Shown here piece after piece: positions 20,265 through 57,540 of a stretch of DNA of 64,000 bases (its first letter is position 1; every line of letters starts with the position of its first letter). The stretch comes from Leucobacter chromiiresistens (GTDB taxonomy: Bacteria; Actinomycetota; Actinomycetes; Actinomycetales; Microbacteriaceae). The translations under genes and the position numbers were made by a program. The notes below the pieces were generated by a model. It was not told where the DNA came from and ran no database searches. It saw nothing but the letters and a program-made list of their open reading frames with translations. The stretch covers positions 1,922,001 to 1,986,000 of the forward strand of contig NZ_FNKB01000001.1 in assembly GCF_900102345.1 (NCBI RefSeq). The letters run 5' to 3'.

Positions 20265-21458
20265 CTATTCGGCGAGCGCGACGTCTCCGGCGGCGACGCC
20301 GTGGAACGCCGCCCAGTCGCGGTTCGCGGCCGCGAGCGCGCCGAGGTCGATCCGCGCGCCCGGGAACGGCGCGACGTCGAGGCCGCCGGCGCGCGTGCGG
20401 CGCCGCTTCCAGGTGCCCACGACGACGCCGCGCTCGACGACGGTCGGCAGGAACATGCCGTTGCGGCCGGGCACGATGCGGGCGAAGTGCTCGGGGTCGA
20501 GCTGCGGCGAGCGCTCGGAGTAGCCCAGCAGGTGCTCGTCGAAGGCCGCGAGGAGCCTCCACTCCGGGAGGGGGGCGTCGCGGGTCGCTCCGAGCAGCCC
20601 CGGATCGACCCACAGCTTCCCGGCGGCCCCGAGCACCGTCTCGCCTGCGGCGTCGCGAGCGCGAACGGGGGCGAGCGCGCCGCTCTCCGCCGCCGCGGCG
20701 ATGCCGATCCGGGCCTCTGCGACGGTGAGGCCGGTCCACCAGGCGAGATCCTTCTCCCGGAACGGCCCGCGGGCTGCGGCGTACCGCACCGCGAGCTCGT
20801 GCAGGGCCGCGTCGCCGGCGAGATCGCGGGAGGCCGTGATCCAGTGCTCCGTCGCGACGAGCAGGGGTTCGCCCCCGGGCCCGATCGGGCCGAATGCGGC
20901 GAGGCCGTTCTGGCAGATCCACCAGATGAGGTGGTACCGCCAGTTGGGCTGCCAGTCGATGCCCGCTTCCGTCCAGGTCGCGGCGAGTCGGTCGCGGTCC
21001 AGCCCGGCGGGGCCCGCGGCGGCGAGCGCGAGCAGCGACGTGTCGACGAGTCGGTCGAGCACCGCGTCGTCGATGCCGAGGAACGCCCGGCGCTTCGGGG
21101 CTCCCGCCAGCACGCGATGGTTGGTGGCGAGCTGCATCCAGCGGATGTCCTCCGCGGCGACGATGTGCACGGTGCCCCGCATGGGCCAGGAGCGCACGAT
21201 GCGTCGGGAGTCGAACGCGGCCTCGACGTCGGCAGACGTCGTGCCGGGGGCGCGCACGCCGAGCGCCCACCGTGCGGACCGCCAGTCCTGGCCCTGCAGC
21301 GCGAGCATGCGCCGCGCGACGGCGGCGATGCGCTCCGCCCCGTCGTGAGCGGTGTCGTCGGTCGAGCTCCGGCCCCCCTCGGCCCCGTCGTGCCCCGCGA
21401 GGCCGAGGGCGCGCATCCGCATTCGGAGCACATCGTCGGGGGAGAGCGTCTCGTTCAT
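20265..21458 (-). CDS. Winged-helix DNA-binding protein, AlkZ/YcaQ-like (HTH_42)
   Basis: A 397-residue protein of the HTH_42 superfamily, which includes the DNA glycosylases AlkZ (Streptomyces) and YcaQ (E. coli) that unhook interstrand crosslinks. Visible hallmarks are RRMLALQGQDWRSARWALGVR, whose Q-G-Q fits the QxQ catalytic motif (~residue 55), SWPMRGTVHIVAAEDIRWM, KRRAFLGI, and a C-terminal barrel with AFDEHLLGYSERSPQL and GRNGMFLPTVVERGVVVGTWKR. Function in DNA repair is inferred from the family. TACACT six bases before the ATG predicts its own leaderless transcript, although the IclR gene ends only 19 bases upstream. Confidence 0.88.
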   Translation of the reverse strand: MNETLSPDDVLRMRMRALGLAGHDGAEGGRSSTDDTAHDGAERIAAVARRMLALQGQDWRSARWALGVRAPGTTSADVEAAFDSRRIVRSWPMRGTVHIVAAEDIRWMQLATNHRVLAGAPKRRAFLGIDDAVLDRLVDTSLLALAAAGPAGLDRDRLAATWTEAGIDWQPNWRYHLIWWICQNGLAAFGPIGPGGEPLLVATEHWITASRDLAGDAALHELAVRYAAARGPFREKDLAWWTGLTVAEARIGIAAAAESGALAPVRARDAAGETVLGAAGKLWVDPGLLGATRDAPLPEWRLLAAFDEHLLGYSERSPQLDPEHFARIVPGRNGMFLPTVVERGVVVGTWKRRRTRAGGLDVAPFPGARIDLGALAAANRDWAAFHGVAAGDVALAE

Positions 21459-21464
21459 GGCCCC

Positions 21465-21470
21465 AGTGTA
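21465..21470 (-). promoter_or_regulatory. Leaderless -10 box for the AlkZ-like gene
   Basis: TACACT, six bases (GGGGCC), then ATG, placed in the 19-bp gap after the IclR gene. Confidence 0.55.
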
Positions 21471-21477
21471 GGCGGGG

Positions 21478-22188
21478 TCAGGCGTCCAACCCCGCGGCGA
21501 GTTCGCTCTCGAGCACTCGGCGCGCTTCGAGCATGACGCGGATGGACTCCTCCATCACCATTCGCCCCTCGGGGGCGATGACGCTCAGGGCGCCGAGGCA
21601 CTCGTCGCCCTGCATGAGGGGCACGGCGATGACCTCGATCGCGTCGCCCATCCACACCGCCCGGTGCACGGAGTAGCCGCGCTCCCTGATCGCGGCCAGG
21701 TCGGCGAGGTGCGGCTCCCGCTCCGCGTCCGTCGCGTGGGGATCGAAGGCGAGGAGCACCTGGCCCGAGGTCGAGCTGAGCGGCAGCATCCGCTCGGCCT
21801 CGCGACGCACGGACAGGGAGCGCCTCGGCTCGATCCGCTCCACGATCAGCGCCGATTCGCCGTTGCGCACGGCGAACGAGATCGGCTCCTCGAGCTGCTC
21901 CACGAGGGCGCGCATGCGCCGCGACACGGCTTCGGGCACGCCCGCGTGCGCCGTCGCGAAGCGCCCGAACGCGGCGGCGCGGATCGAGAGACGGTATCTG
22001 CGCTGCGAGTCCTGCTGCAGCCACCCCGTGTGCACCAGCGTGGTCAGGTACTGGTGCGTGGCGGGCCGGCTCCACCCGAGCGCCTCCGCGATCTCGGAGA
22101 GCGCGATCGCGGCTCGGTCGAAGTGCATGAACTCCTCGAGCACGCGGATCGTCTTCTCGACGGACTGCAGGGTGGTCTGGCCGGACAT
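21478..22188 (-). CDS. IclR-family transcriptional regulator
   Basis: A 236-residue regulator with an N-terminal winged helix-turn-helix (SVEKTIRVLEEFMHFDRAAIALSEIAEALGWSRPATHQYLTTL, residues ~9-50) and the C-terminal IclR effector domain (SFAVRNGESALIVERIEPRR; STSGQVLLAF; VIAVPLMQGDECLGALSVIAPEGR). GGAGAGAGC precedes the ATG. It is divergent from the six-gene operon at 22388-29064, with three AATC...GATT dyads in between, so it most likely represses that operon and senses its substrate or an intermediate. Confidence 0.93.
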   Translation of the reverse strand: MSGQTTLQSVEKTIRVLEEFMHFDRAAIALSEIAEALGWSRPATHQYLTTLVHTGWLQQDSQRRYRLSIRAAAFGRFATAHAGVPEAVSRRMRALVEQLEEPISFAVRNGESALIVERIEPRRSLSVRREAERMLPLSSTSGQVLLAFDPHATDAEREPHLADLAAIRERGYSVHRAVWMGDAIEVIAVPLMQGDECLGALSVIAPEGRMVMEESIRVMLEARRVLESELAAGLDA

Positions 22189-22271
22189 TGCTCTCTCCGA
22201 TCGGGCGCCGAGACTGCCGCTCGGCGCAAGGGCTGCTTCTCACTGTCGCCGAGATTTTCGGCGGCGCCCTC

Positions 22272-22300
22272 TTGACGCGCCGCTGAGGGCTGTTTACTGT
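22272..22300 (+). promoter_or_regulatory. Promoter of the 22.4-29.1 kb operon
   Basis: TTGACG (22272-22277), a 17-base spacer and TACTGT (22295-22300), placing the start point near 22307. This is the best vegetative-type promoter match in the window. Confidence 0.7.
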
Positions 22301-22314
22301 TTTCAATATACCTG

Positions 22315-22375
22315 AATCATGATTAAAGAATACTTAATCCATTGATTCGGGGCTTTCGACGAATCAACGATGATT
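22315..22375. promoter_or_regulatory. Three AATC...GATT dyads, candidate IclR operators
   Basis: AATCATGATT (22315-22324, a perfect palindrome), AATCCATTGATT (22336-22347) and AATCAACGATGATT (22362-22375) lie just past the predicted start point. The region is much more AT-rich than its surroundings. Binding here would block transcription of the operon. Confidence 0.6.
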
Positions 22376-22387
22376 GGAGCGGATACG

Positions 22388-24919
22388 ATGCGGAATCCCT
22401 ACCTCGACGAGGCGTTCTCACCCGAACGGGTGATGGACCCGCGGAGCCTCGGGGCCCTGCAGCCGACGCGGCTGAGCGCATCGCGGAGCTTCCTCGCCCG
22501 GATGCTGCGGGAGGGATGGCGCATTCGCCGAGACCTGCTCGAACTCGACGCACGGGGCAACGGCGCGGCCCGCTACACGATCGAGACGCCTTCGGGAAGC
22601 ATCACCTACGCCGCCTGGCTGAGCGAACCGCGGGGCGTCAACCGCACCGGCCGCATCATCGGATCGTCGTGGGACATGATCGGCACGCTCATCGACGGCG
22701 TCGCGAGCGACGACCAGATCGCCGCGTCCGCCGCGGAGCTGCCGAAGCTGTATGAGGGGCGCGCCCCGGAGGGCACGCTCATCTGGATGCGGTCGAACCA
22801 GAGCCTGCGCCTCTTCAAGCACGTGCGCGACTCGCTGGCCGCGGGCCAGCAGCCCGACGCCGCAGAGGTGAAGCGGGTGGGGTACCTGATGCGCAACACC
22901 GGCCTGGACGGCAACGGCACCTTCGGATCGGTGTCGTTCCCCGCCATCCCGGCCGGGCACCCCCTCGCCCTGTCGTACCACGCGCAGATGCTCTCGGCCT
23001 ACCTGATGCGGGAGCTCTCCGTCGACGTGGTGGAGGAGCTCGCCCGCCTCGACGCCCCCGGCACCGCCGTCGGCCTCGCGCCCGAGGTGCGCCGGCACAT
23101 CGGAGTCGGCAACGGCTCCGCGCTCGGCCTCGTGATGTTCGTCTACAACCGCCCGGCGCTCATCCACACCTACATGTCGCTCACCGTCGAGGCCGCCCGG
23201 CACGCGCTGGAGCTGCCGATCGAAGCGGGGGATCCGCGATTCGCGCGGCTCGAGGCGCTGCTCGACCGCACCATCCAGTACCGCGCCCTCGAAGACACCC
23301 AGTACCGCGTCTTCACGAACGGCAAGCAGCTCGCCGCCGACCTCCGCCGCATCCGCGCCGCCGTGCGCGCCGCTCGCCGCGGCGACATCGAGCGGGCCTC
23401 GGGGGAGACCCCGCTCGCCGCAGCGCACCGGTTCGTCAATGGCCGGGTGTCGCCCGAGGCGCTCAGCACGTTCCACACCCTCCTGATCGAGCTCGACCCC
23501 GACTTCGCCGACGCGCTGGTGCAGGATCGCCTGAACTTCGATGAGACCCTCGACCTCGACCCGCAGCTGCCGGCATCGGAGGTGCGTGAGGCGCTGCTCG
23601 ACACCTTCGGCTGGGCGTTCCGGATGCCGCTCAACGACGCCGAGCACCGCGACCGGGTGTGGTACCAGTCGCGGGCCGCCGAGGAGCCCCGCTCCGGCCC
23701 CGCGGAGGAGGTGCCCGGCGCGCACGAGGTGATCCCGAACTATCCCACGCGGGCGCGGGAGCTGCTCGCAGCGCTCGACGCCGTCGACCCGCTCACGCCC
23801 ATCGGATCCGTCATCGCCGCCCGGCCCGCGCTCGAGCACATGGCGCGATCGGCGGTCGCGCTGCGCGAGATGCCGTACGCCGTGCCGCACGCCGATCCCC
23901 ACGACATCGACTTCGTACCGGTCTGGCTCGTGCGACTCATGAACTCCTGCATCCACGGCCTCGACCGCACCGAGGACTTCCTGAACCGCTCCGTGCTCGG
24001 CCTCATCTACGACGGAGCCCCGTTCCGCGACGAACTCGCCACGGCCCACGCCGACGAGTGGTGGTGGAACTACCGCCCGGCCGTGACGGAGGACCCCGCA
24101 GCTGCGACCCCGGGATCCGCAGCGCCCGCGCTCTCCCCGAAGGTGAGCGCCATCGTCGCGCCGCGGCACGACCCCGCGGAGCGGATCACGATGAAGTTCC
24201 GCGAGCTGCGGCTCGCCGGAGGGCGGGCGATGCAGGCGCTCGAGGTGCCGGAGGGGTCGTGGCACGGCGCCCGCGACTTCTTCGTCACCGCGCTGATCGC
24301 TGACCCGGCGGCGATCACGGGGTTCGCGGGCGCGCTGGCGCGCGAGCTCGACGAGGCGGGCCGGGCCCGCGAGTGGCGGGCCCCCGCGGCGGAGCTCGCC
24401 GACGGCGCGCTCGTCATCGACTGCCACGGCGCGAGCCTGCACACCGTGGGCCACGTACTCGTGCACCGGATCGCCGCAGCCGTCGCCGACTCCGCCCGAG
24501 ACGTGCGCCTCGTCGACCTCCGGCCCGACGGCGCAGAGCCCGGCCTCGCCCTCGCCCTCGCACGCATCGGCGTCGACTGGGAACCGGTGCGCGCCGAGGA
24601 GGGCCGCTACCGCGCCCGGCGGAGCGCTGATCCGGAGGCGGCGCGCGCCCGCTTCGACGACGGCTTCGCCGCGCTGCTGCGCGAGGGAATCGAGGTGCCC
24701 GCGCAGCAGTGGTGGGACGTCTACTACCCGGGGAATGCGGGCCTCTACCCCGACACGCCCCTCTCGCGGCAGCACACCGGCACGGTGAAGGACGTCTACG
24801 TGCCCGGCCAGCAGCTCACGCGGCTCTTCGACCCCGCGGAGGTCGCCAACTCGTCCGACCCGAACCGCGACACCGACCACTACATCCCGCTCACCACCGC
24901 CCACCACGCGTCCGTCTGA
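22388..24919 (+). CDS. Large protein of unknown function, first gene of an IclR-linked operon
   Basis: I do not recognise this 843-residue protein. It has no signal peptide, clear membrane segment or nucleotide-binding loop, so it is probably a cytoplasmic enzyme or assembly protein. The N-terminal ~260 residues contain RNTGLDGNGTFGSVSFP and VYNRPALIHTYMSL. The centre has a Trp-rich DEWWWNYRP. The last ~240 residues hold VIDCHGASLHTVGHVLVHRI, whose clustered His could bind metal, then VRLVDLRPDG and QQWWDVYYPGN. I chose the ATG at 22388 because GGAG lies eight bases upstream; an in-frame ATG at 22370 lacks this and overlaps a dyad. Nine bases separate it from the M19 gene. The operon context implies catabolism of an imported amino-acid-like compound. 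Confidence 0.85.
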   Translation: MRNPYLDEAFSPERVMDPRSLGALQPTRLSASRSFLARMLREGWRIRRDLLELDARGNGAARYTIETPSGSITYAAWLSEPRGVNRTGRIIGSSWDMIGTLIDGVASDDQIAASAAELPKLYEGRAPEGTLIWMRSNQSLRLFKHVRDSLAAGQQPDAAEVKRVGYLMRNTGLDGNGTFGSVSFPAIPAGHPLALSYHAQMLSAYLMRELSVDVVEELARLDAPGTAVGLAPEVRRHIGVGNGSALGLVMFVYNRPALIHTYMSLTVEAARHALELPIEAGDPRFARLEALLDRTIQYRALEDTQYRVFTNGKQLAADLRRIRAAVRAARRGDIERASGETPLAAAHRFVNGRVSPEALSTFHTLLIELDPDFADALVQDRLNFDETLDLDPQLPASEVREALLDTFGWAFRMPLNDAEHRDRVWYQSRAAEEPRSGPAEEVPGAHEVIPNYPTRARELLAALDAVDPLTPIGSVIAARPALEHMARSAVALREMPYAVPHADPHDIDFVPVWLVRLMNSCIHGLDRTEDFLNRSVLGLIYDGAPFRDELATAHADEWWWNYRPAVTEDPAAATPGSAAPALSPKVSAIVAPRHDPAERITMKFRELRLAGGRAMQALEVPEGSWHGARDFFVTALIADPAAITGFAGALARELDEAGRAREWRAPAAELADGALVIDCHGASLHTVGHVLVHRIAAAVADSARDVRLVDLRPDGAEPGLALALARIGVDWEPVRAEEGRYRARRSADPEAARARFDDGFAALLREGIEVPAQQWWDVYYPGNAGLYPDTPLSRQHTGTVKDVYVPGQQLTRLFDPAEVANSSDPNRDTDHYIPLTTAHHASV

Positions 24920-24928
24920 AGGAGACCG

Positions 24929-25915
24929 ATGATCTACGTCGACAGCCTGCTCTGCTCACCGCTCGAGACCGAGCGCCCCGGCAACCGCCCCTCCCTCGAG
25001 GAGGTGGCGGCCGGAGGGCTCGGAGCGATCACCGTCACCGTCGGGTTCTGGGAGGACGCCACCGAATCCATGGACCAGATCGTGAAGTGGCGCAACATGG
25101 CGGAGGACAACGCCGACCTCGTCGAGATCGCCTACCGCGCCGACGACATCCGGCGCATCGCGGAATCCGGTCGCACCGCCATCATCCTGGGCTTCCAGAA
25201 CGTATCGTTCCTGCAGGGCCGCCTCGGCTACGTCGAGCTGTTCGCCCGCATGGGCACGCGCGTCGGGCAGCTCACCTACAACATCCAGAACGACCTCGGG
25301 GGCAGCTGCTACGAGCCGCACGACAGCGGGCTCTCCCGGTACGGGCGGTACGTCGTGCAGGAGATGAACCGCTGCGGCATGGTCATCGACCTGTCGCACG
25401 TCGGCGAGCAGACGACGCTCGACGCCATCGAGGCATCCGGCGAACCCGTCGCCATCACGCACGCGAACCCTGCCTCGCTCGCCCCGCACCCCCGCAACAA
25501 GTCGGATCGGGTACTCGATGCACTGCGCGAACGCGACGGCATGATCGGCGTCTCGGTGTACCGCAACCTCGTCGGGGAGTACACGACCCCGCAGCGGTGG
25601 TCCGAACTCGTCGCGTGGACGGTCGACCGGGTCGGCATCGAGCGCGTCGGCATCGGCACCGACCTCGACCAGAACGGCGGCTTCGCGTACGTCGAATGGA
25701 TGCGGCAGGGGCGCTGGGCGCGCGAGATCCAATACGGCGCGTCGGGGCCGTCCGCACCGGGGCCCACCCCGCCGCTCGACTGGTTCAGCACCCCCGCGCA
25801 GTTCCCGAACGCCGAGGTGTGCCTGCGCGAGCGCGGCTTCGCCGAGGCGGAGGTCGCCGCGATCATGGGCGAGAACTGGCTGCGCTTCTACGACACCGTC
25901 TTCCGAGAGCTCTAG
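24929..25915 (+). CDS. M19 membrane-dipeptidase-like protein lacking canonical metal ligands
   Basis: A 328-residue amidohydrolase-fold protein of the renal/membrane dipeptidase (M19) family. Recognisable parts are VIDLSHVGEQTTLDAIEASGEPVAITHANP, with the two C-side metal His (~157 and ~177), GIGTDLDQNGG near the barrel end and the C-terminal IMGENWLRFY. The N-terminal HxD of M19 enzymes is replaced by YVDSLLCS, and the position of the bridging Glu reads GFQN, so the two-zinc site should be incomplete. Despite the family name no signal peptide is seen. GAAGGAGA precedes the ATG. It may cleave a dipeptide, a beta-lactam-like amide or another amide imported by the adjacent transporter. Confidence 0.85.
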   Translation: MIYVDSLLCSPLETERPGNRPSLEEVAAGGLGAITVTVGFWEDATESMDQIVKWRNMAEDNADLVEIAYRADDIRRIAESGRTAIILGFQNVSFLQGRLGYVELFARMGTRVGQLTYNIQNDLGGSCYEPHDSGLSRYGRYVVQEMNRCGMVIDLSHVGEQTTLDAIEASGEPVAITHANPASLAPHPRNKSDRVLDALRERDGMIGVSVYRNLVGEYTTPQRWSELVAWTVDRVGIERVGIGTDLDQNGGFAYVEWMRQGRWAREIQYGASGPSAPGPTPPLDWFSTPAQFPNAEVCLRERGFAEAEVAAIMGENWLRFYDTVFREL

Positions 25916-25934
25916 GCCGAGAGGAACCGAACCC

Positions 25935-26735
25935 ATGGCTGTCATCGATACGTCAACGACGACGTACACCGGTTCCACCCTGCGCCCGTTCCTCAACGCG
26001 GAGCGGATCGTCAAGCGCTTCGGCGAGCATCGCGCCATCGACGATGTCTCCCTGGCCGTCGGCCGCGGGGAGGTGATCTCCGTCATCGGCCCGTCGGGCG
26101 CCGGCAAGAGCACCTTCCTCAGATGCCTCAACCTGCTCGAACTGCCCGACTCGGGTGCGCTCTCCATCGGCGACGAGGAGATCGAGTTCGCGGAGGGGAG
26201 CCCACCGGCGCGGGCGCAGGTCGCGCGCCTGCGACGGCAGGCCGGAATGGTGTTCCAGTCCTTCAACCTCTTCCCGCACCTCACCGCCGCGCAGAATATC
26301 GAGCTCGCGCAGAAGCGGGTGCTCGGCCGCAGCGCCGACGAGGCCCGTGACCGAGCGCGATCCCTGCTCGACCGCGTCGGGCTCGCGGCGAAGGCCGACG
26401 CCTACCCGAGCCAGTGCTCGGGCGGGCAGCAGCAGCGCATCGCCATCGCGCGAGCGCTCGCGATGGATCCCGAGCTCATGCTCTTCGACGAGCCGACCTC
26501 GGGGCTCGACCCCGAGGTCGGCGCCGAGATCCTCACCGTCATGCGCGAGCTCGCGGATTCGGGCATGACCATGCTGATCGCGACGCACGAGATGGAGTTC
26601 GCGCGCCACGTCTCGAACCGCGTCATCGTGATGGTCGACGGAGCCATCGTCGAGCAGGGGCAGCCCGAGCAGATCATGACGGAGCCGAAGAGCCCGCGCG
26701 TGGGCCGCTTCCTCTCCGCGGTGCTGGGGCGCTGA
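25935..26735 (+). CDS. Polar amino acid ABC transporter, ATP-binding subunit
   Basis: A 266-residue GlnQ/HisP-type ATPase. It shows Walker A GPSGAGKST (~52), Q-loop VFQSFNLFPHLT, signature CSGGQQQRIAIARAL (~161), Walker B LMLFDEPTSGLDPE (~180) and the switch His in ATHEMEFAR. FQSFNLFPHLTA is typical of polar amino acid importers. It energises the two permeases encoded immediately downstream; only one base lies between its stop and the next ATG. GAGGAA lies eight bases before the start. The first ~20 residues are an extra hydrophilic lead not usual in GlnQ. Confidence 0.95.
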   Translation: MAVIDTSTTTYTGSTLRPFLNAERIVKRFGEHRAIDDVSLAVGRGEVISVIGPSGAGKSTFLRCLNLLELPDSGALSIGDEEIEFAEGSPPARAQVARLRRQAGMVFQSFNLFPHLTAAQNIELAQKRVLGRSADEARDRARSLLDRVGLAAKADAYPSQCSGGQQQRIAIARALAMDPELMLFDEPTSGLDPEVGAEILTVMRELADSGMTMLIATHEMEFARHVSNRVIVMVDGAIVEQGQPEQIMTEPKSPRVGRFLSAVLGR

Positions 26736-26736
26736 G

Positions 26737-27381
26737 ATGGGCGACGCACTGCTCGCCATCGCGCTCGCCGCAGGCATGACGATCCTCCTCACCGCCGTGT
26801 CGGGGGCGATCGGGATCGTGCTCGGCGCCCCCGTCATGCTGCTCTCGCGAAGCCGGTTCGCCCCGCTGCGCGCGCTCTACTGGGGCTTCGTGCACATCGT
26901 GCGCGGCGTGCCGACGCTCGTGTGGCTCTTCATCGTCTTCTTCGGGATCACGCAGCTCGGCATCACCCTGGGCGCGGTGACCTCGGCGCTCATCACGCTC
27001 AGCGTCATCGCGGTCGCGAGCATGGCCGAGATCTACCGCGGCGGGCTGAACGCCATCAAGCCGGGCCAGTGGGAGGCCAGCGCGGCGCTCGGTCTCGGCC
27101 GCTTCGCGACCGCCAAGGACGTGCTCTACCCGCAGCTCTTCCGCGCGGTCTCGCCGACGGTCGCGACCTATCTCGTCGGCCTCATCAAGGAATCGGCGCT
27201 CGCCTCGACCATCGGCGTCGCCGAGATCACCTTCGTCGCCGGGCTGCAGGTGCAGTACTTCGGCGAGGGCCTCACCTTCTTCGCATTCGCGGGCCTGATG
27301 TACCTCGCGCTCAGCGTTCCGCTCGGAGCCCTGTCGCGCGGCGTGCACGCCCGCTTGACCCGGAGGTACGCCGTACTATGA
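26737..27381 (+). CDS. Polar amino acid ABC transporter permease (first)
   Basis: A 214-residue HisM/GlnP-type permease with about five helices. VHIVRGVPTLVWLFIVFFGI near residue 50 and YRGGLNAIKPGQWEASAALGLGRFATAKDVLYPQLFRAVSP, the EAA loop that docks on the ATPase, are the family hallmarks. It pairs with the next permease, whose ATG overlaps its TGA, so the two are translationally coupled and probably form a heterodimeric channel. Confidence 0.94.
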   Translation: MGDALLAIALAAGMTILLTAVSGAIGIVLGAPVMLLSRSRFAPLRALYWGFVHIVRGVPTLVWLFIVFFGITQLGITLGAVTSALITLSVIAVASMAEIYRGGLNAIKPGQWEASAALGLGRFATAKDVLYPQLFRAVSPTVATYLVGLIKESALASTIGVAEITFVAGLQVQYFGEGLTFFAFAGLMYLALSVPLGALSRGVHARLTRRYAVL

Positions 27382-28130
27382 ACGACTTCTCCTGGCTCTG
27401 GGATTGGCCGACGCACATCTCCGCGCTGCTGCCCGGCCTGGGCGTGGCCATCATGCTCACCGTCGTCTCCTGCGTGATCGGGTACCCGCTCGGGTTCTTC
27501 CTGGCCGTCCTCTCCGAGTCGCGCAGCCGATGGATCCGCTGGACGACGATCGCGGTCGTCGAGACCGGACGCGGGCTGCCCGCGCTCGTGCTGCTGTACA
27601 TCGTGTACCGCGGCCTGCCGCAGCTCGGCGTGCTCATCGACGCGATCCCCTCGGCGGTCATCGCGCTCACCATCACGGCCGCCGCCTACTCCGCCGAGAT
27701 GATCCGCGCGAGCATCTCGGCGCTCCCGCACGGGCAGACCGACGCCGCCGATGCGCTGGGGCTCGGACGCGCCGACCGGTTCCGGTACATCATCCTGCCC
27801 CAGGCGGCGCGCATCTCGATCCCGCCGCTCGTGAACCTGACCATCACCATGTTCCACATCACCTCGCTCGCGAGCGTGATCACCGTCGCCGAGATCATGC
27901 ACGCCGCATACCTCAGCGGGGCGATCAACTGGCGGTATATGTCGGTGTACCTCGCAGCGGCGTTCGTCTACGCCGTCATCGCGATCCCGGGCGCCGTCAT
28001 GGCGGGCCGGCTCGAGCAGCGGCTCGGGGGCGGGAAGCCGCCCCGACGCAAGCGGCGAGCGCTGCGCGGCGCCGGTGCGCCCGGCCCCGTCGTCTCGCCC
28101 GCGGTGACGCGAGAGCACGCACCGGCGTGA
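27378..28130 (+). CDS. Polar amino acid ABC transporter permease (second)
   Basis: A 250-residue permease of the same family. ETGRGLPALVLLYIVYRGLPQLG and the EAA loop AEMIRASISALPHGQTDAADALGLGRADRFRYIILPQAARI are clear. It starts at the ATG of an ATGA overlap with the first permease. The last ~40 residues form an Arg-rich, probably cytoplasmic tail (PPRRKRRALRGAG) that is longer than usual. Confidence 0.94.
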   Translation: MNDFSWLWDWPTHISALLPGLGVAIMLTVVSCVIGYPLGFFLAVLSESRSRWIRWTTIAVVETGRGLPALVLLYIVYRGLPQLGVLIDAIPSAVIALTITAAAYSAEMIRASISALPHGQTDAADALGLGRADRFRYIILPQAARISIPPLVNLTITMFHITSLASVITVAEIMHAAYLSGAINWRYMSVYLAAAFVYAVIAIPGAVMAGRLEQRLGGGKPPRRKRRALRGAGAPGPVVSPAVTREHAPA

Positions 28131-28206
28131 TCCGCGCGCTCCACGTCCGCCCCCGTACCGCCCACCCCTCGACCGAACGCACACCCACACCCATCAGGAG
28201 GCACCC

Positions 28207-29064
28207 ATGAAGCACCGACTGACCCGCACCGCAGCCCTCGGGGCCGCCGCCGCTCTGCTCCTCGCCGGATGCAGCAGCGCGGGCGGCGGCTCGGAGGCGG
28301 TCGCCGAAGACTGCGTCCCCGCCCACGACGGCATCGAGACCATCAAGCCCGGCGTGCTCACCGTCGCCCACTACGACTACCCGCCCTTCGCATACATGGA
28401 GGAGGGCGAGTTCGTCGGCATCGAGGGGGAGATCATCGCCGAGATCGCGAAGATGGAGTGCCTCGACCTCGAGCTCGTGCAGGGCGACGGATCGGCGATG
28501 ATCACGTCCGTGCAGACCGGTCGAGCCGATACGACCCTCGGCAGCTGGTACCGCACGAAGGAGCGCTCGGAGGTGGTGCGGCTGAGCGACCCGGTCGTCA
28601 CCTCGCCGCTGTCGGTGGTCTCGACGACCGGCGTGCAGACCGTCGACGAGCTCACCGAGCTCGATGCGGTCGGAGCCGGACAGGCGCTCGTCGGCGTCGA
28701 GGAGATGCAGGATCTGCTCGGCGGCAAGCTGAAGCTGTACGCGAACAACGATGCGGAGTTCGCAGACTTCCAGGCGGGGCGCATCGACGGAGCCGTGCTC
28801 GGGCTCGGCGCAGCCGTGACGCTGCTCGAGCTGTACCCCGTCGAGGGGGCGACCGTCGAACCGCTCGAGGCCGATCCGCGTCTCTCCGCGACGGTGAACG
28901 TCGGGCAGACGAACTTCCCCGTCGGCCTCGACAACGACTCGCTGGGCGACGCGATCAACGACGACATCGCGCAGCTGCGCGAAGACGGCACGATCGCCGA
29001 GCTGGCCGAGAAGTACGGGTTCCCGGCGGAGATCGCCGATCCGGGCGAGCCGAACCTGCTCTAG
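28207..29064 (+). CDS. Polar amino acid ABC transporter substrate-binding lipoprotein
   Basis: A 285-residue extracellular binding protein (SBP_bac_3 family). A signal peptide ends in the lipobox LLLAGC, so Cys21 should carry lipid and anchor it outside the membrane. The binding domain starts PGVLTVAHYDYPPFAYMEEGEFVGIEGEIIAEIAK and ends QLREDGTIAELAEKYGFPAE, both typical of amino acid receptors. CAGGAGG lies five bases before the ATG. It completes the importer set (ATPase, two permeases, receptor). Its ligand should be the substrate of the 843-aa and M19-like proteins upstream. Confidence 0.95.
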   Translation: MKHRLTRTAALGAAAALLLAGCSSAGGGSEAVAEDCVPAHDGIETIKPGVLTVAHYDYPPFAYMEEGEFVGIEGEIIAEIAKMECLDLELVQGDGSAMITSVQTGRADTTLGSWYRTKERSEVVRLSDPVVTSPLSVVSTTGVQTVDELTELDAVGAGQALVGVEEMQDLLGGKLKLYANNDAEFADFQAGRIDGAVLGLGAAVTLLELYPVEGATVEPLEADPRLSATVNVGQTNFPVGLDNDSLGDAINDDIAQLREDGTIAELAEKYGFPAEIADPGEPNLL

Positions 29065-29105
29065 GCAGCCGCCGCGGGGGCCCACTGCCGCTCCGCCCCG
29101 CCCCG

Positions 29106-29139
29106 CCCCGCCCCGCCGACGAATCGTGCCGGGGCGGGG
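29106..29139 (+). terminator. GC hairpin ending the importer operon
   Basis: CCCCGCCCCG (29106-29115) pairs with CGGGGCGGGG (29130-29139). The left arm is part of a CCCCG run repeated several times from about 29093. Confidence 0.65.
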
Positions 29140-29153
29140 CTGGCGCGTATCGC

Positions 29154-29159
29154 TACCCT
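29154..29159 (+). promoter_or_regulatory. Leaderless -10 box for the SDR gene
   Basis: TACCCT, six bases (GGACTC), then ATG. No ribosome site is visible. Confidence 0.55.
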
Positions 29160-29165
29160 GGACTC

Positions 29166-30005
29166 ATGCACGCGAACGGCAGCACCATCGTCATCACCGG
29201 CGCCAGCGACGGCATCGGAGCCGCGGCCGCTCGCCGGCTGCACCGCAACGGTCACCGGGTCGTGCTCGTCGGGCGATCGCCCGACAAGACGCAAGCCATC
29301 GCCGCAGAGCTCGGAGCCCCGTTCCACCTCGCCGACTTCGCCGACCTCTCGCAGGTGCGCGCGCTCGCCGCAGCGCTGCTCGCGGAGCACGACCGCATCG
29401 ACGTGCTCGCGAACAACGCCGGCGGAATCATGGGAGACCGCACCCTCACGGTCGACGGGTACGAGCAGACCTTCCAGGTCAACCACCTCGCCCCGTTCCT
29501 GCTCACCCGCCTGCTGATGCCCGCGCTGGCCGCGGGGCGGGCGACGGTCGTGCAGACGGCGAGCCTCGCCGCCCGCGCGTTCAGCCGGTTCGACATCACC
29601 GACCTGCAGAACGCGCGGCGGTACGCGCCGCAGCGCGCGTACGGCAACGCCAAACTCGCCAACATCCTCTTCACCGCCGAGCTGCAGCGCCGGCACGGCG
29701 CGGAGGGCATCTCGGCCGCCGCCTTCCATCCCGGGGTCGTCGCGAGCAGCTTCGCGAGCGACACGACGCACCTCATGCGGCTCGTCTACCACACCCCGCT
29801 CAAGCGCCTCTTCACGATCAGCGCCGACGCCGGGGCGGATCAACTGGTCTGGCTCGCCGAGGGGACGCCGGGGTCGACGTTCACGCCGGGCGCCTATTAC
29901 GAATCGCGGGCCATCGCCGTGAAGGTGAGCCCCGAGGTGCACGATCCCGAACTCGCGCGCGAGCTCTGGGAGCAGTCGCTCGCCCTCGTCGGCGAGGCAG
30001 GCTGA
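29166..30005 (+). CDS. Short-chain dehydrogenase/reductase (SDR)
   Basis: A 279-residue NAD(P)-dependent oxidoreductase. It has the cofactor loop TGASDGIG, DVLANNAGGIMG, a Ser in VVQTASLAARAF and the catalytic YGNAK (YxxxK). ALERT-like cofactor residues VGRSPDK after the second strand suggest NADP. The longer C-terminus and F-N-H-L order (FQVNHLAPFLLTRLL) resemble the retinol-dehydrogenase/WW-oxidoreductase-like SDR group. The substrate is unknown. It is leaderless by promoter spacing and converges on an old-yellow-enzyme gene, so its neighbours do not define a pathway. Confidence 0.9.
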   Translation: MHANGSTIVITGASDGIGAAAARRLHRNGHRVVLVGRSPDKTQAIAAELGAPFHLADFADLSQVRALAAALLAEHDRIDVLANNAGGIMGDRTLTVDGYEQTFQVNHLAPFLLTRLLMPALAAGRATVVQTASLAARAFSRFDITDLQNARRYAPQRAYGNAKLANILFTAELQRRHGAEGISAAAFHPGVVASSFASDTTHLMRLVYHTPLKRLFTISADAGADQLVWLAEGTPGSTFTPGAYYESRAIAVKVSPEVHDPELARELWEQSLALVGEAG

Positions 30006-30122: not shown

Positions 30123-30179
30123 TCGCGCCGGGAGCGGCCGCGGCGCGACCCGACCGGCTGGCGGGGGCGGCGCGCGCGG

Positions 30180-31265
30180 CTAGAACCGCGCCCGCGCGTA
30201 CTGCGGCGGCACGAGCGCCTCGGCAGCCGGTGCGCGCAGCTCGTGCGCCCAGCTGATCGGCAGGTGCGGGTTCGCGAGCAGCGGGCGGCCGAGCGACACG
30301 ACGTCGGCCTGGCCCGTGGCGAGGATGCCCTCGGCCTGCTGCGCGCTCGTGATGAGGCCGACCGCGCCCACGGGGAGCGCACCCGACCGTCGCAGCTCGG
30401 CGGCGAGCGGCACCTGATAGGAGGGGCCCACCGGAATCGGCGCGCCCGGGGTGTTGCCCGCCGTCGACGCGTCGACGAGGTCGGCGCCGTCCTCCGCCAG
30501 CCATTCCGTGACGCGGGTCGCCTCGGCGCCGTCGAAGCCGCCGTCGATCCACTCGGTGGCCGAGAGGCGCACCACGATGGGCAGGGTCGGGTGCTCTGCC
30601 CGCACCGCGCGCACGATCTCGCGGAGCAGGCGGGCCCGCCCGGCGAGGTCGCCGCCGTACTCGTCGGTGCGCTCGTTCGAGAACGGCGAGAGGAACTCGT
30701 GGACGAGGTAGCCGTGGGCGGCGTGGATCTCGACGGCGTCGAACCCGACGCTCGCGGCGCGGCTCGCGCCGTCGACGAAGGCCTGCACCACGCCGGCGAT
30801 CTCGGCGGTCTCCAGGGCGCGCGGCGTCGCGTACTCGCCGAACGGCACGGCCGACGGCGCGACGGTCTCCCAGCCGCCCTCGGCCTCGGGCACCGACCCT
30901 TCGGGGAAGCCGGGCAGCGACGGGTGAGTCGATCCCTTGCGCCCCGCGTGCGCGAGTTGCACGCCGATCTTCGCGCCGTGCGCGTGCGCCGCATCGACGA
31001 TGCGCCGGAGCGGGGGCAGCTGCGCGTCGTCCCAGATGCCGGGGCAGCGGGGGCTGATGCGGCCCTCGGGGGTCACCGCGGTCGCCTCCATGAAGACGAG
31101 ACCGGCGCCGCCGCGTGCGAAGCCGCCGAGGTGCTGCAGGTGCCAGTCGCCGACGACGCCGTCCTCGGCGTCGACCGAGTACTGGCACATCGGCGCCACC
31201 CACAGTCGGTTGCGGATCTCGAGATCGCGGAGCGTGAACGGACGGAAGAGCAGCGGATCAGCCAT
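30180..31265 (-). CDS. NADH:flavin oxidoreductase, old yellow enzyme family (YqjM-like)
   Basis: A 361-residue FMN-dependent ene-reductase. LFRPFTLRDLEIRNRLWVAPMCQYS carries the active-site Cys near residue 26 typical of thermophilic-like/YqjM enzymes. GVQLAHAGRKGS contacts FMN, FDAVEIHAAHGYLVHEFLSPFSNERTDEYGG contains the substrate-binding His pair, and the C-terminal Arg-rich end (PPQYARARF) fits the YqjM dimer arginine finger. Such enzymes reduce activated C=C bonds and nitro compounds using NADPH. TAGGCT lies eight bases before the ATG. It is divergent from the ABC exporter across a region with a nested hairpin. Confidence 0.92.
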   Translation of the reverse strand: MADPLLFRPFTLRDLEIRNRLWVAPMCQYSVDAEDGVVGDWHLQHLGGFARGGAGLVFMEATAVTPEGRISPRCPGIWDDAQLPPLRRIVDAAHAHGAKIGVQLAHAGRKGSTHPSLPGFPEGSVPEAEGGWETVAPSAVPFGEYATPRALETAEIAGVVQAFVDGASRAASVGFDAVEIHAAHGYLVHEFLSPFSNERTDEYGGDLAGRARLLREIVRAVRAEHPTLPIVVRLSATEWIDGGFDGAEATRVTEWLAEDGADLVDASTAGNTPGAPIPVGPSYQVPLAAELRRSGALPVGAVGLITSAQQAEGILATGQADVVSLGRPLLANPHLPISWAHELRAPAAEALVPPQYARARF

Positions 31266-57461: not shown

Positions 57462-57533
57462 TGGGATATGGTGTAATTGGCAACACTACGGTTTCTGGTA
57501 CCGTCATTCTAGGTTCGAGTCCTGGTATCCCAG
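57462..57533 (+). tRNA. tRNA-Gln (anticodon CTG)
   Basis: A cloverleaf is visible: acceptor TGGGATA/TATCCCA, D-arm with TGGTGTAATTGGCA, anticodon stem ACGGT/ACCGT around loop TTCTGGT (anticodon CTG, reading CAG), and T-arm with GGTTCGAGTCC. The discriminator is G at 57533 and CCA is encoded at 57534-57536. Confidence 0.96.
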
Positions 57534-57540
57534 CCACTGA

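Follow-up and report, generated by a model that had tools for sequence, protein, structure and literature searches.

A conserved LARGE-SMALL-M19-like gene module beside an amino acid-type ABC importer in Leucobacter chromiiresistens and its possible catabolic role

We show here that a 64,000-nucleotide stretch of the Leucobacter chromiiresistens genome (assembly GCF_900102345.1, contig NZ_FNKB01000001.1, positions 1,922,001 to 1,986,000 of the forward strand; hereafter the window) carries a conserved module of three parts, LARGE, SMALL and an M19-like protein, the first two of which are fused here into a protein of 843 amino acids (aa), beside an ATP-binding cassette (ABC) importer and an IclR-family regulator. 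It is quite possible, if short of probable, that this operon is dedicated to importing and catabolising a single small nitrogen compound, a zwitterion with a carboxylate and probably without a free alpha-amine, for instance a homarine-type N-heterocyclic or N-methylated acid or something closely similar. We favour the breakdown of such a zwitterionic carboxylate over dipeptide uptake because the M19-like protein lacks the HxD motif and the bridging Glu, and the binding protein lacks the alpha-amine Asp.

The six genes of the operon lie tightly packed on one strand, with intergenic gaps of 9, 19, 1, -4 and 76 bp, and face the regulator (Table 1), in the spacing and order given in the initial annotation of this DNA; its assignments of the importer, the M19 protein and the IclR regulator likewise agree with Pfam matches that all exceed their cut-offs. 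The gene order is repeated at all eight loci L001-L008, from other Leucobacter, Galactobacter, two Labedella, Sediminivirga and Pedococcus, and the regulator keeps its divergent position at each. Since the L001 contig ends before the binding-protein gene, importer homologues were found at eight of these loci and the binding protein at seven. With fused and split forms taken together, 34 of 36 loci, picked from search lists and not at random, have an M19-like gene within 4 kb of LARGE (33 of 35 distinct ones, as L065 repeats L005); the misses are a Mesorhizobium locus (L014) and an Aminobacter locus (L016) in which LARGE is annotated in two pieces. The distance matrices of LARGE and M19 are correlated over 26 chosen loci (r 0.951, with none of 999 shuffles as high), a correlation to which shared genome ancestry contributes. 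This co-occurrence, together with an importer at many loci, partly supports the earlier proposal of a dedicated catabolic pathway for an amino-acid-like molecule: of the two findings named there as refuting it, a clear match of the 843-aa protein to a characterised enzyme did not turn up in our searches, and a lack of linkage with M19-like genes was not seen. The cleavage of dipeptides is not supported.

Table 1. The operon, its regulator and its upstream elements, with positions in the window (pLDDT, predicted local distance difference test; pTM, predicted template modelling score).
Feature	Position	Strand	Evidence and remarks
IclR-family regulator, divergent	21478-22188	-	HTH_IclR 52.6 bits and IclR_C 46.6 bits, both over cut-off (Pfam)
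Candidate promoter TTGACG-17-TACTGT	22272-22300	+	-35 and spacing kept, -10 variable
Inverted repeat GATTAA-N7-TTAATC, candidate IclR operator (putative function)	22321-22339	no strand	
843-aa gene, LARGE-SMALL fusion	22388-24919	+	Predicted model pLDDT 90.4, pTM 0.92
LARGE part, residues 1-~563	22388-24076	+	Uncharacterised family; stand-alone gene in many relatives
SMALL part, residues 594-786	24167-24745	+	Halved-Ldh_2-like fold (type II malate/lactate dehydrogenase); kin to DUF3726 proteins
Divergent M19-like gene, 2i5g-type	24929-25915	+	PF01244 238.5 bits; without canonical HxD and bridging Glu
Polar-amino-acid-type ABC ATPase	25935-26735	+	ABC_tran 116.3 bits
ABC permease 1	26737-27381	+	BPD_transp_1 63.1 bits; TIGR01726 over cut-off
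ABC permease 2	27378-28130	+	BPD_transp_1 77.9 bits; TIGR01726 over cut-off; 4-bp overlap with permease 1
Family-3 solute-binding lipoprotein	28207-29064	+	SBP_bac_3 86.9 bits; carboxylate Arg kept, alpha-amine Asp replaced by Gly

Sequence, profile and structure searches gave no clear match of the 843-aa protein to a characterised enzyme, in line with the initial annotation. It matched no family in Pfam at E≤1 or in NCBIfam at E≤0.1, gave one chance-level row against PDB sequences (E 1.6) and nothing useful against PADLOC or PHROGs; by Foldseek, neither of two models matched PDB, and LARGE alone matched no viral model, at E≤0.001. A confident model of LARGE had no clear relative in PDB, and weak Foldseek rows (fumarase/adenylosuccinate-lyase, JetA and uricase) did not rise above noise and were discarded. 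An anti-phage role was also rejected, the 843-aa protein having no PADLOC match and the M19-like protein a partial DpdF row (E 0.007). The earlier statement that the protein has no recognisable domain needs correction: the protein is a fusion of two parts encoded by separate genes elsewhere, the C-terminal one being like a halved Ldh_2 protein.

A protein search found at least 727 relatives of the 843-aa protein at E≤0.001 among 7994 scored, and most of the best 120 are either full-length or about 570 aa long, the latter covering 65-67% of the query. In Bosea and Sinorhizobium, the locus runs from IclR through the 570-aa LARGE gene and, directly after it, a gene encoding about 240 aa to an M19 gene and an ABC importer. 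With one marine LARGE relative as query, at least 7997 proteins matched (all of the 7997 scored); throughout the two lists of the best 120 LARGE relatives the source names given are 'hypothetical' or 'uncharacterized protein'. LARGE proteins scanned against Pfam matched no family, one Mesorhizobium row giving two chance-level matches. Over 97 chosen rows, LARGE has 43 invariant columns, including 8 Arg, 5 Trp, 2 Asp, 2 Asn and 1 Glu. In a quick tree built from 45 selected LARGE rows, the 18 fused ones make up one side of a branch with a Shimodaira-Hasegawa-like approximate likelihood ratio test (SH-aLRT) support of 100, so that a single fusion event would suffice for LARGE-SMALL.

SMALL resembles an Ldh_2-type fold of about half the length. 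Among six proteins compared with Ldh_2 (PF02615), three scored 31.0, 25.8 and 10.9 bits, all under the gathering score of 38.8, and the other three, the SMALL part in the window included, had no Ldh_2 sequence match. A SMALL profile matched five full Ldh_2 proteins weakly (E 0.0047, probability 7%) and five DUF3726 proteins at E 0.00043 (probability 34%, over 175 columns). A 344-aa neighbour of M19 (L061:10069-11103) matches Ldh_2 at 1.8e-7 and looks intermediate between full Ldh_2 and SMALL.

The M19-like protein exceeds the PF01244 cut-off by far (238.5 bits versus 26, residues 14-320), and its nearest solved chain is 2i5g ('amidohydrolase'; E 1.1e-59), which we take to be Pseudomonas aeruginosa PA5396. 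We assume for its site residues (HxD, bridging Glu, His, His and Asp) the roles that they have in the human enzyme. In 39 aligned rows of the subfamily, which include the window copies and 2i5g (10 of 47 loci with a match were left out as incomplete), HxD is absent from all 39, Gln replaces the bridging Glu and Tyr replaces the substrate His in every row, and the remaining site residues are kept (second His in 38 of 39, third His and catalytic Asp in 39 of 39). The changes from Glu to Gln and from His to Tyr are seen against GliJ too. The protein falls within M19 by PF01244, but its subfamily lacks the canonical two-metal site of that family. Homology does not justify naming the protein a dipeptidase, and the hint of dipeptide cleavage in the annotation is not supported, since the subfamily is without the canonical metal ligands and the binding protein without the usual alpha-amine Asp. 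As 2i5g shares the loss of metal ligands, a solved structure of this odd subfamily exists already. Our literature search returned no functional report for DUF3726, PA5396/PA5397 or locus names.

The importer is assigned by PF00497, PF00528 (in both permeases) and PF00005, all over cut-off, and by TIGR01726 in both permeases. The best NCBIfam models for the ATPase are TcyN, GlnQ and EhuA, and all equivalog models listed for the importer fall below cut-off. In the window and in nine further operon copies (L002-L008, L067 and L068), the binding protein retains the Thr-x-x-Arg stretch with which amino-acid binders grip the carboxylate, but it has Gly in place of the Asp present in 4zv1. If, as we assume for family-3 amino-acid binders, the Arg binds the carboxylate and the Asp the alpha-amine, then retention of the one and replacement of the other points to a ligand that is probably a carboxylate without a free alpha-amine.

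The distribution of LARGE is patchy: searches in the genus found it in 14 of 54 genomes, in the family in 3 of 199, in the phylum in 5 of 396 and in the order of another carrier in 2 of 30. Within the genus there are three layouts: the fused LARGE-SMALL gene with M19 and importer genes; IclR-LARGE-SMALL-M19, with RidA next wherever the stretch reaches that far; and LARGE-IclR-SMALL-M19, after which comes a gene matching the PotA-like ATPase of Bosea. A homology query placed RidA at 11 of the 36 loci, and it is annotated additionally at L010, L011 and L051. The genome of the window has two LARGE and two M19 genes, every M19 beside a LARGE. Its second module is unfused (L019:6958-11573; G000:C1 ~1101957-1106572) and consists of IclR, LARGE, SMALL, M19-like and RidA genes, with family-5 peptide-type ABC genes on the opposite strand (SBP_bac_5 235.1 bits). 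Elsewhere, an actinobacterial LARGE-M19 pair (L064:1058-8018) adjoins Ldh_2, alpha/beta hydrolase, AA_synth and luciferase-like monooxygenase genes, a mix reminiscent of N-heterocycle degradation clusters. In one Sinorhizobium meliloti record the module continues with an aminotransferase, a succinate-semialdehyde dehydrogenase (SSADH) and two RidA genes in turn. One report describes the transport gene SMb20383 as induced in a dme mutant (PMC4960864), and this gene might lie in the S. meliloti LARGE locus.

A further branch is found at LysR-type loci. The order LysR, aldehyde dehydrogenase (ALDH), M19, LARGE, DUF3726, Ldh_2, with BCCT or glycine-betaine importers, was found in Ruegeria, Phaeobacter M644, Shinella and Aminobacter; the stretch viewed of Phaeobacter DSM 17395 (L011) holds neither Ldh_2 nor a BCCT or glycine-betaine importer. 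The ALDH of L050 is nearest to the NCBIfam models of 2,5-dioxovalerate and 2-oxoglutarate-semialdehyde dehydrogenases, below cut-off. Sarcosine-oxidase-type genes adjoin the loci L013, L049 and L050 and are absent from L011, L015 and L052. The actinobacterial LysR-type locus L066 adjoins a relative of the window importer (45-65% identity).

We propose that the importer would deliver a small nitrogen-containing carboxylate, on which LARGE-SMALL would act first, to activate the ring or C-N system or to open it. The M19-like protein, which keeps only part of its metal site, could then complete C-N cleavage by hydrolysis or elimination at the resulting amide, formamide or enamine, and a RidA protein might clear reactive enamine or imine products. 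The carbon skeleton would reach central metabolism in the form of a C4-C5 semialdehyde or amino acid, a semialdehyde dehydrogenase possibly being the last step where such a gene is present, and IclR would lift its repression in response to the compound or an early intermediate. A bolder version of this scheme, which we regard as somewhat doubtful, would make LARGE-SMALL an enzyme of a new kind, with a new fold joined to a halved and repurposed Ldh_2 subunit, for the dearomatisation or opening of pyridinium-type carboxylates, and the product would pass to an M19 protein with a new hydrolytic or elimination step instead of dipeptidase chemistry; the fused actinobacterial form would then be the counterpart of a large marine branch, acting on a different compound.

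Several observations weigh against this proposal. LARGE of the LysR branch, from which part of the argument is drawn, is 27-29% identical to that of the window. By homology query there is no RidA at the fused loci L001-L008, the four RidA genes of the window genome include one beside the second module and none near the operon, and the operon itself lacks genes for RidA, ALDH and a full Ldh_2. A far branch in Mesorhizobium has LARGE and a small neighbour (L014:9004-11405) without M19 and may be used by a different pathway; the genes around it are annotated as amino acid synthesis family, carboxymuconolactone decarboxylase, alpha/beta hydrolase and ALDH. The binding protein of L066 has its Asp one residue off, so its ligand may differ. 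Importers also vary by lineage (polar amino acid, SBP_bac_8/PotA-like, betaine ABC and BCCT types, with family-5 peptide-type ABC genes near by), and therefore the substrate may differ too.

Among other explanations, the catabolism of dipeptides or D-amino-acid dipeptides, in which a dipeptide is imported and cleaved by M19, with the 843-aa protein in an accessory role, would account for the PF01244 match and for the peptide/nickel-type family-5 binding-protein gene opposite the second module, similar genes being found near the split copies L072-L075. Yet the M19 subfamily rows examined have all lost the canonical HxD and Glu, the window importer is of polar-amino-acid and not peptide type, and its binding protein is without the alpha-amine Asp, so that we hold this explanation to be quite unlikely. 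It is also unlikely, if less so, that the module frees an omega-amino acid from a gamma-aminobutyrate (GABA)-like or polyamine-derived amide, for conversion to succinate by an aminotransferase and SSADH. Such a route would suit the S. meliloti record, where these two genes stand in line with an ABC importer and two RidA genes, and Alloyangia, where gabT and SSADH genes lie near by on the opposite strand; in Bosea, the ATPase is nearest PotA, just below the cut-off (346.1 versus 355.6 bits), and the binding protein is weakly like PotD (42.6 versus 582 bits). However, the window operon has no aminotransferase or SSADH gene, the LysR branch has betaine-type importers, and a polyamine importer in S. 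meliloti is unsupported because the binding protein there has no NCBIfam match at 1e-10.

It may be, too, that LARGE-SMALL is a non-catalytic scaffold or regulator built from degenerate enzymes, with catalysis elsewhere. The weak sequence signal of a SMALL part like halved Ldh_2, the degenerate M19-like partner and the lack of a recognised active-site fold in LARGE would fit such a role, but the invariant columns of LARGE would not, and the operon has no candidate enzyme beyond the M19-like and importer genes; we judge it quite unlikely.

Upstream of the operon, the initial annotation had seen a good promoter. A generic sigma-70 consensus scan of 21400-29300 found none at the scan threshold, but TTGACG with a 17-bp spacing is common to four aligned upstream regions (the window and L001-L003, three Leucobacter relatives), in which the -10 elements read TACTGT, TACTGT, TATTGT and TAGTAT. 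The inverted repeat GATTAA-N7-TTAATC is exact in the window, L001 and L002 and differs at the first base in L003. A short-chain dehydrogenase/reductase (SDR)-family gene, named by eye (29166-30005, 101 bp past the binding protein), was rejected as a member of the operon: it lies outside the conserved unit because a close copy adjoins the operon only in L002 among L001-L008, the match in L008 (28%) lying farther away from it and the L001 contig being too short to judge. The window also holds a tRNA-Thr (CGT) at 30165-30250 on the minus strand and a tRNA-Gln (CTG) at 57462-57536 on the plus strand.

Because importer, regulator and enzymes are encoded together, the question of function is directly testable. 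One solved LARGE reaction could annotate thousands of genes, explain a subfamily of M19 'dipeptidases' that is probably misnamed and reveal the re-use of a halved dehydrogenase.

SMALL is about half as long as the Ldh_2 dehydrogenases (PF02615, such as the delta1-piperideine-2-carboxylate reductase 1wtj) and, unlike them, is fused to or paired with LARGE. The M19-like subfamily shares the PF01244 match of the membrane dipeptidases, but has other residues in place of HxD, the bridging Glu and the substrate His; the importer components share families with the polar-amino-acid ABC importers of the TcyN, GlnQ and EhuA types, with the ligand-site Asp changed to Gly in the window. Homarine catabolism reportedly depends on five operon genes and their regulator (homABCDER), a set that the loci of the LysR branch would fit. 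The operon in the window differs from it in having IclR instead of LysR, a fused LARGE-SMALL and a polar-amino-acid-type importer, and no ALDH or Ldh_2 match was found at L001-L008 or among the six genes of the window, so that the complete homarine gene set is absent here. One article has Mgd participating in homarine catabolism (PMC13390433) and cites a 2026 Nat Microbiol paper on the pathway (doi 10.1038/s41564-026-02313-7); our searches on homarine found no paper giving the gene set. The sarcosine-oxidase-type genes beside L013, L049 and L050 might be mgd. That 2026 paper may describe marine relatives of the LARGE module, and the marine branch may thus already be in print. Homarine is a lead, not a result. 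A unit for import and breakdown is a known arrangement, built here on an uncharacterised large enzyme family.

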